Positions 40,871-45,346 of a stretch of 46,510 nucleotides of DNA are shown here, piece after piece; the first letter of the stretch is position 1, and every line of letters starts with the position of its first letter. The notes under the pieces were generated by a model. That model made no database searches, was not told the DNA's origin, and saw only the letters and a program-made list of their open reading frames with translations. Origin of the DNA: Pseudomonadota bacterium (GTDB taxonomy: Bacteria > Pseudomonadota > Alphaproteobacteria > SMXQ01); assembly GCA_022566265.1 (NCBI GenBank), contig JADFJG010000013.1, positions 1 through 46,510 on the forward strand, in the 5' to 3' direction. A program made the translations under genes and the position numbers.

Positions 40871-41110
40871 TCAGTTCCAAAACCTTTTGTTTGCAAATGC
40901 CTTGCCCGAACCTGATTTGAAATATCTTTCGAGTTCGAGCGCATTGCTCTCCGTTTCCACGGCAACATAAGATTTCAAGGTGACGGGCAGGTAAGTCTTT
41001 GTTGAAATCACCTGACCTCGTTGATGTGACGTAATGCGCCGTCGAAGGTCGTTCGTCGACCCAACGTATTTATCGCCATTGCTCAATTGAAGAAAATAGA
41101 CGTACCACAT
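40871..41110 (-). CDS. GIY-YIG nuclease superfamily mini-protein (79 aa)
   Basis: MWYVYFLQLSNGDKYVGSTNDLRRRITSHQRGQV...ALELERYFKSGSGKAF. Confidence 0.9.
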   Translation of the reverse strand: MWYVYFLQLSNGDKYVGSTNDLRRRITSHQRGQVISTKTYLPVTLKSYVAVETESNALELERYFKSGSGKAFANKRFWN

Positions 41111-43767: not shown

Positions 43768-43791
43768 CGGCCCGGCAGGGCCGTCAGGCCA

Positions 43792-43857
43792 CTAAGATTA
43801 ATCCCTTGATCTTAGTTACCTGAGGACCTATATTAAGATCAATCAACTGATCTTAAT
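43792..43857 (+). promoter_or_regulatory. Two palindromic operator-like sites (43792-43815, 43832-43857) overlapping a sigma70-like promoter
   Basis: CTAAGATTAATCCCTTGATCTTAG and ATTAAGATCAATCAACTGATCTTAAT; TTGATC-N17-TATATT at 43806-43834. Confidence 0.8.
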
Positions 43858-43865
43858 AGCCTAAC

Positions 43866-45317
43866 ATGCTTGAAGTCACTGAAAAAGAAGTCGAAACGCG
43901 CCTCACCTTTGACAATCCCTGGTGGGGTGAGCGGGCGGGAATCGCCGCCGAAATCAGGGGATGGCCCAAACGGGCCTATTTCGAGACCTTCGCCAAGCTT
44001 GTCACGGAGACGGACGTTCGCCGCGCCGTCGTCCTGATGGGACCACGCCGGGTCGGCAAGACGGTCATGATCCAGCAGACGATCCAGCATCTGATCGACC
44101 GGGGCACGGCGCCGAAATCGATTTTTTACGTCTCCGTTGACACTCCGACTTATATGGGCCTGCCGCTGGAACGGCTGTTCCGGTTGTTCACGGAGCAGTT
44201 TGGCCACCGGCGCGAAAGCCGGCTCTACGTTTTTTTCGATGAGGTCCAGTACCTGAAAGACTGGCAGGTCCACCTCAAATCGCTGGTCGATTCGTTCCCG
44301 GCCGCGCGGTTCGTCGCCTCCGGTTCGGCGGCCGCGGCGCTTAGACTCAAAAGCCGGGAGTCAGGGGCAGGACGGTTCACCGATTTCCTGCTGCCGCCTT
44401 TGACCTTCGCCGAATTCTTGTCGTTCTCGGAACGAGAGCAAGACCTTTTCCCCGATGGCGGCGATACCATCGAAGCAACGGATTTGTCCCCTGACTTCAT
44501 CAGGTTGCTTAACCGCGATTTCATCGAGTACTTAAATTACGGAGGGTTTCCAGAGGCTGTCTTTTCCGACAGGATTCGGACGGACTTCCGGCATTTCGTC
44601 GGCAGCGACATCATCGACAAGGTCCTGCTCCGTGATCTTCCCAGCCTGTACGGGATAAGCGACACACAGGAGTTGAACCGCCTGTTCGCCACTCTTGCGT
44701 ACAACACGGGCAACGAGGTCGGCCTGGAGGGCCTTTCCAGATCGTCGGGCGTCGCCAAGAACACCTTGAAGCGGTTCTTGGAGTATCTCGAGGCGGCGTT
44801 CTTGATCCGGCGCGTCCGCCGCGTCGATCAAAACGCGAAACGATTCAAGCGCTCTGTCACGTTCAAAGTTTACCTGACCAATCCTTGTTTGCGCGCGGCG
44901 TTGTTCGGACCCGTCAGTGCTTCAGACAGGGCGATGGGCCGTCTGGCGGAAACCGGCGTTCTCAGCCAGTGGCTGCATTCCCAAGGGAGCGTCGAGCAGA
45001 TCTTTTATGCCCGCTGGAAAGACGGGGAAGTGGATTTTGTGGAGTTGGATATGGCCACCCAGTCTCCGGTGAAAGCGGTAGAGGTCAAATGGAGCGACCG
45101 CCACAGGACACACCCGGGCGAGCTCGCGACTTTCACCACTTTCGTAAGGGAAAATCGAGTGCCGGAGCACTATCTGCTGACGCGATCTCATTCGGGAGAT
45201 GGCGAAGTGGCCGGCATACCTGTGCGTTTCGTGCCGGTCAGTTTCTTCTGTTACCGGTTTGGCAAGGCCGCCATAAAGATGGGATTGGCTGTTCAGTCGG
45301 TTTCTTGGCGTCTATAA
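43866..45317 (+). CDS. AAA_14 ATPase with C-terminal DUF4143 / PD-(D/E)XK-like domain
   Basis: Walker A VVLMGPRRVGKTVMI, Walker B LYVFFDEVQYLKDW, sensor ARFVASGSAA, C-terminal GEVDFVELD...VKAVEVKWS. Confidence 0.92.
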   Translation: MLEVTEKEVETRLTFDNPWWGERAGIAAEIRGWPKRAYFETFAKLVTETDVRRAVVLMGPRRVGKTVMIQQTIQHLIDRGTAPKSIFYVSVDTPTYMGLPLERLFRLFTEQFGHRRESRLYVFFDEVQYLKDWQVHLKSLVDSFPAARFVASGSAAAALRLKSRESGAGRFTDFLLPPLTFAEFLSFSEREQDLFPDGGDTIEATDLSPDFIRLLNRDFIEYLNYGGFPEAVFSDRIRTDFRHFVGSDIIDKVLLRDLPSLYGISDTQELNRLFATLAYNTGNEVGLEGLSRSSGVAKNTLKRFLEYLEAAFLIRRVRRVDQNAKRFKRSVTFKVYLTNPCLRAALFGPVSASDRAMGRLAETGVLSQWLHSQGSVEQIFYARWKDGEVDFVELDMATQSPVKAVEVKWSDRHRTHPGELATFTTFVRENRVPEHYLLTRSHSGDGEVAGIPVRFVPVSFFCYRFGKAAIKMGLAVQSVSWRL

Positions 45318-45346
45318 CTCTGGCCAACCTCTGTCGCGCCCGCGCC

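Follow-up and report, generated by a model that had tools for sequence, protein, structure and literature searches.

How is a lone AAA_14/DUF4143 ATPase gene controlled when two related palindromes lie across its promoter, and which protein reads them? The question arises from the window analysed here, the whole 46,510-nt stretch, where a first-pass annotation had described two palindromes with centers about 41 bp apart and a TTGATC-N17-TATATT promoter interleaved with them, and had suggested that the ATPase, or the domain at its C-terminus, might regulate its own gene. The elements preceding the gene are these.

43793–43814, no strand: putative operator O1, a 22-bp palindrome of the form TAAGATTA-N6-TGATCTTA (sequence, homologue conservation).
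43806–43811, + strand: -35 element, sequence TTGATC, within the right half-site of O1.
43829–43834, + strand: -10 element TATATT, the last T of which is the first base of O2.
43834–43855, no strand: putative operator O2, a 22-bp palindrome of the form TAAGATCA-N6-TGATCTTA (sequence, homologue conservation).

Both palindromes are present as described (O1, TAAGATTAATCCCTTGATCTTA; O2, TAAGATCAATCAACTGATCTTA) at a center-to-center distance of 41 bp, and dinucleotide shuffling of the window, repeated 100 times, produced none, the chance expectation being none. Pairing in O2 reaches beyond the 22-bp unit to 11 perfect pairs (43831–43841 with 43848–43858; 43831–43858 overall). The interleaved promoter (43806–43834) also stands, with its -35 within O1 and its -10 running into O2, and is the sole sigma70-type match in the region against an expectation of 0.1. 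The ATG does follow shortly after O2, although the gap is 10 nt rather than the 9 first given, and no clear Shine–Dalgarno sequence is visible upstream of it, unlike in some homologues that carry AGGAG before the start codon. A search of the whole 3.55-Mb genome with up to one mismatch returned no copy of the site beyond O1 and O2, and a looser pattern gave one unrelated match.

Conservation was followed in 80 homologues of 45–59 per cent identity from Pseudomonadota, Verrucomicrobiota, Planctomycetota, Nitrospirota, Myxococcota, Acidobacteriota, and Bacteroidota. The initial proposal was to be abandoned if the palindromes were not conserved before homologous genes; they are in fact kept there across phyla, with a fixed spacer and promoter geometry. 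With up to three mismatches, TAAGATCA-N6-TGATCTTA was matched 36 times within 80 bp upstream of start codons (79 loci) and twice in the ∼668 kb outside those 80 bp, so that sites of this type are ∼1,900 times denser upstream than in the remainder of the same loci. The shorter pattern TAAG-N14-CTTA gave 40 matches in 36 of 77 upstream regions from several phyla, whereas every other spacer from 6 to 22 gave 0–5 matches. When the arms were slightly relaxed, the 22-bp site was found in 57–62 of the 77 homologues, a count that includes some chance matches because other spacers yielded 2–24 loci; about one-quarter of the homologues are without a clear TAAG-N14-CTTA-like site.

Where two sites occur their spacing is exactly 41 bp in twelve homologues, and 33, 36, 39, 40, or 42 bp in one or two each. 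Across eleven aligned 41-bp loci TTGAYC stands in the right half of O1 as the -35 and is followed by N17 and a TANANT -10 that runs into O2, and the gene-conserved operator thereby overlaps the gene's own promoter, as would be expected of an autorepressor. Many homologues, a beta-proteobacterial group with its one recognized site ∼43 bp before the start among them, have a single recognizable site, and two-site cooperativity is therefore not a general requirement. At four Nitrospirota/Myxococcota loci (L045, L048, L049, and L053) the right half of the operator is TTGACATTA, which holds the perfect -35 consensus TTGACA. In three homologues of one genus at 39 per cent identity (L110, L111, and L112), a conserved upstream AATAGCGTTTATCACTATACC replaces TAAG-N14-CTTA and is possibly their operator.

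As a single motif the site is non-specific in very large data, because the exact motif was matched in 34 stretches of viral contigs, about the chance level, and none had an ATPase nearby. With one mismatch allowed, it occurred in 21 of 399 genomes of the phylum (the window's own included), mostly by chance, and in one of these, G012, it lies 20 bp before a homologue. A viral contig (L238:6542–6601, IMGVR_UViG_3300042731_005409) carries two exact TAAGATCA-N6-TGATCTTA sites 38 bp apart, preceding an ORF of 60 aa that has a CxxC zinc-ribbon-like sequence, with GAGGAG after the first site and no ATPase homologue in the stretch examined; the pair may be an operator mimic or decoy of viral origin, or else an RNA element.

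The gene that follows O2 encodes a protein of several recognizable parts.

43866–45317, + strand: AAA_14/DUF4143 ATPase gene, 483 aa, PADLOC PDC-S01 (profile searches, AlphaFold).
44019–44420, + strand: AAA_14 P-loop ATPase domain, residues 52–185, with GPRRVGKT and FDEVQ (domain match, alignment).
44715–44876, + strand: predicted winged-helix domain, residues 284–337, the presumed operator-binding part (DSSP on the AlphaFold model).
44757–44795, + strand: predicted recognition helix, residues 298–310, with Asn at residue 299 (AlphaFold/DSSP; top covarying column with the operator).
45000–45089, + strand: PD-(D/E)XK-type core, residues 379–408 (homologue alignment, AlphaFold).

The family assignment of the first-pass annotation is borne out by both Pfam domains, each above its curated cut-off (AAA_14, PF13173, E 2e-31, 109.1 bits against 27; DUF4143, PF13635, E 7e-23, 81.5 bits against 28.1), and no further DUF4143 gene was detected in the same genome. 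Seven PDC-S01 models of PADLOC match the protein, the best at E 3.5e-59 over residues 43–453; a Pfam scan found no WYL domain, and a sequence search of the PDB gave nothing useful. The AlphaFold model (mean pLDDT 90.5, pTM 0.91) contains a helix at 287–294, the recognition helix at 298–310, and wing strands at 314–320 and 332–337, which by secondary structure and model confidence amount to the winged-helix fold looked for in an autorepressor. Toward the C-terminus, E388, D390, E406, and K408 are invariant among 62 homologues and fall at the adjacent strands 387–394 and 401–407; acidic residues on one strand and E-x-K on its neighbor are the signature of a PD-(D/E)XK nuclease, and the protein is accordingly a putative nuclease. 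The AAA_14 domain together with these invariant residues suggests a nuclease under ATP control.

The connection between this protein and its operator comes from covariation. For each homologue the best 22-mer was selected on its outer arms and overall palindromic character, inner-base identity being unused, and 469 usable protein columns were ranked by normalized mutual information with operator positions 5–8. Residue 299, the second of the recognition helix, ranked first of the 469 for positions 5, 6, and 7, and kept that rank at positions 5 and 6 both when the set was strict (n = 52) and when it was de-duplicated (n = 42). Of the 34 half-sites that go with N299, 33 carry AT, and all 10 that go with E299 carry CA; a GATCA-type operator accompanies 24 of 30 N299 proteins and none of the 47 proteins without N299. 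The six N299 exceptions have no close GATCA operator: L050 and L069 are without any site, and the other four carry one that is degenerate or related.

Common descent inflates the covariation between residue 299 and the operator. A tree from which the winged-helix columns were withheld shows at least eight switches between N and non-N at residue 299; well-supported branches provide four independent pairs with a change at 299, of which the operator follows in 3.2 on average and never opposes, a number on which the sign test alone is not significant. The close sisters L059 (N299, inner ATTA/ATCA) and L061 (S299, ACTA) differ in both residue and operator, and within Verrucomicrobiota the proteins with N299 (L010 and L027) have GATYA operators, as against TAAGAC or TAAGC with A/T299 (L020, L026, L043, and L082). 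In a held-out test of 11 homologues, from which the more distant L110–L113 were left out, a GATCA-type site was present for all seven distinct N299 proteins—L114, L115, and L117 from viral contigs, L122 from a plasmid of Acinetobacter seifertii, and L106, L107, and L108 from genomes—and absent for all four proteins without N299 (L109, L119, L120, and L121). Operator bases that covary with the DUF4143 recognition helix, and held-out loci that agree, lend support to the suggestion that the ATPase, or the domain at its C-terminus, regulates its own gene.

The palindromes might instead be bound by a separate host regulator encoded elsewhere that controls the ATPase, given that dedicated regulators bind most promoter palindromes and that host genomes hold many of them. 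Such a regulator is improbable at this locus: its own genome has the site only here, the operator is kept across phyla that differ in their regulator sets, and the operator bases track the recognition helix of the ATPase itself. Nor is a regulator gene conserved beside the operator; no neighbor family occurs in more than 6 of 88 loci, and a neighbor-encoded regulator was ruled out on that ground.

Autorepression by the ATPase also agrees with the setting of the gene, which had been proposed to be a self-contained one-gene system and does look like one, being a one-gene insert missing from relatives and having no conserved neighbor.

43768–45346, no strand: inserted segment between a convergent nnrU-like gene and argG (relatives' empty site, lower G+C).

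The convergent nnrU–argG gap is 1,579 bp in the window and -4 to 170 bp in six same-family genomes, and the insert holds the operators and the ATPase gene only, at a G+C of 54–61 per cent against 64–72 per cent. In the one same-genus genome searched, argG adjoins folD, with neither nnrU nor the insert. Homologues are found on a plasmid and on viral contigs as well, and the whole pattern fits a horizontal movement of operator and gene together. The palindromes were ruled out as terminal repeats of a mobile element, the sites being at one end of the insert only. Elsewhere in the window, a small GIY-YIG-like ORF (MWYVYFLQLSNGDKYVGSTNDLRRR...) was judged by eye at 40871–41110 on the minus strand.

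That mobility, and the presence of the gene on a plasmid and on viral contigs, would also suit a palindrome serving as a target or origin-like site for an Orc/Cdc6- or Rep-like ATPase in replication, recombination, or mobility, with regulation secondary. The Foldseek neighbors of the protein do include DnaA, Cdc6/Orc1, and RuvB, and some such AAA+ proteins have winged helices, but TM-scores are only 0.2–0.4 by query length. For the Orc1/Cdc6 and DnaA initiators the matches reach E ∼1e-6, with TM-scores of 0.25–0.31 on the query. Since the sites stand at the promoter end rather than at both insert ends, in fixed register with the -35 and -10, and no replication or recombination partner is conserved, such a role is highly improbable. 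The perfect inverted repeats could fold, but the reading of them as RNA or DNA hairpins (a terminator, an attenuator, or a cruciform) and not as sites for a protein was rejected and has a very low probability, there being no terminator-like site and no Rfam match, O1 lying upstream of the start point, the spacer being fixed at exactly 14 with free inner sequence, and the arm bases following a protein residue.

There is thus good reason to think that the insert is a mobile unit of one gene, complete in itself, whose ATPase/PD-(D/E)XK product very probably represses its own promoter through O1 and O2. Promoter-overlapping palindromes could in principle serve activation instead; negative autoregulation is the best reading because the private operator covers the -35 and -10 and its bases follow the gene's own DNA-reading residue. 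O1 and O2 would be private operators of the ATPase gene, bound, possibly cooperatively, by its product through the winged helix inside the DUF4143 region. Protein on O1 would cover the -35, protein on O2 would cover the last part of the -10 and the region around the start point, and RNA polymerase would thereby be blocked, with repression rather than activation as the outcome and an ATPase/PD-(D/E)XK protein that could be dangerous held at a low level. On sensing a trigger, such as infection, or a nucleotide state, the ATPase may leave the DNA. Operator and gene would travel between genomes as one unit, and a private operator of this kind would explain how new hosts tolerate a lone, horizontally moving nuclease-like gene.

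Whether this arrangement extends further is a more tentative matter. An upstream palindrome score of at least 9 was reached by 13 of 45 distant DUF4143 genes (29 per cent), against 1.3 per cent of their own dinucleotide shuffles and 6 per cent of other genes, an indication, though not proof, that autoregulation is widespread in the superfamily. That autorepression through the effector's own winged helix is general across the DUF4143/PDC-S01 superfamily, with private operators coevolving with recognition helices, is a possibility to which somewhat less than even confidence can be given. If true, it would apply to single-gene units numbering in the tens of thousands among bacteria and archaea, and a triggered ATPase leaving its operator would link sensing, derepression, and nuclease activity within a single protein. 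One genome of the same phylum (G124) has at least 12 full-length DUF4143 genes, some in tandem (C34 and C164), and several have their own upstream palindromes that differ from one another, which makes it a natural test bed for private operators. Related distant DUF4143 proteins (L197, L209, and L218; MYRHH.../MYRNH...) have in common an upstream palindrome of the type AAAACA...TGTTTT.

PDC-S01 comprises phage-defence candidates in which an AAA_14/DUF4143 ATPase is fused to PD-(D/E)XK, with 9,986 occurrences in archaea and 29,494 in bacteria. It is reported to rank fourth in abundance among prokaryotic defence systems, candidates included, and is as yet unvalidated (PMC12988326). The window protein belongs to this family and has the same ATPase and PD-(D/E)XK layout. 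That archaeal survey describes PDC-S01 by abundance and phylogeny only; the words 'winged' and 'promoter' are absent from it, and it holds no operator, winged-helix DNA binding, regulation, or antiviral test (PMC12988326). The open-access literature yielded no report on PDC-S01 regulation. What the present analysis adds is the operator and the winged helix, and with them a first concrete testable activity for PDC-S01: the DUF4143 winged helix is predicted to bind DNA in a sequence-specific manner, with residue 299 as the expected contact and the bases that it should read also predicted. A known operator would also provide a simple reporter for trigger screens with phage, DNA damage, or nucleotide state.

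Several known systems resemble the proposed one in part. In M.SsoII-type methyltransferases a defence enzyme with its own DNA-binding region regulates transcription of its own system, although there a methyltransferase with an N-terminal regulatory region acts in a two-gene restriction-modification system (PMC6100179, PMC3978073), whereas the window encodes in one gene an ATPase/nuclease-like effector whose winged helix is internal. BrxR/CapW, CapR, RptR, and C proteins are likewise repressors at defence gene promoters, but they are separate regulator genes (PMC12255303), and the window system has neither a separate regulator nor a WYL domain. Autoregulated toxin–antitoxin operons with paired palindromic operators share the short palindromes overlapping the promoter and the autorepression; the window gene, in contrast, is without an antitoxin partner, and DNA binding would reside within the presumed effector. 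Self-regulating defence enzymes and separate defence repressors are thus already known, and what would be new here is a one-gene system in which the presumed effector is its own repressor.
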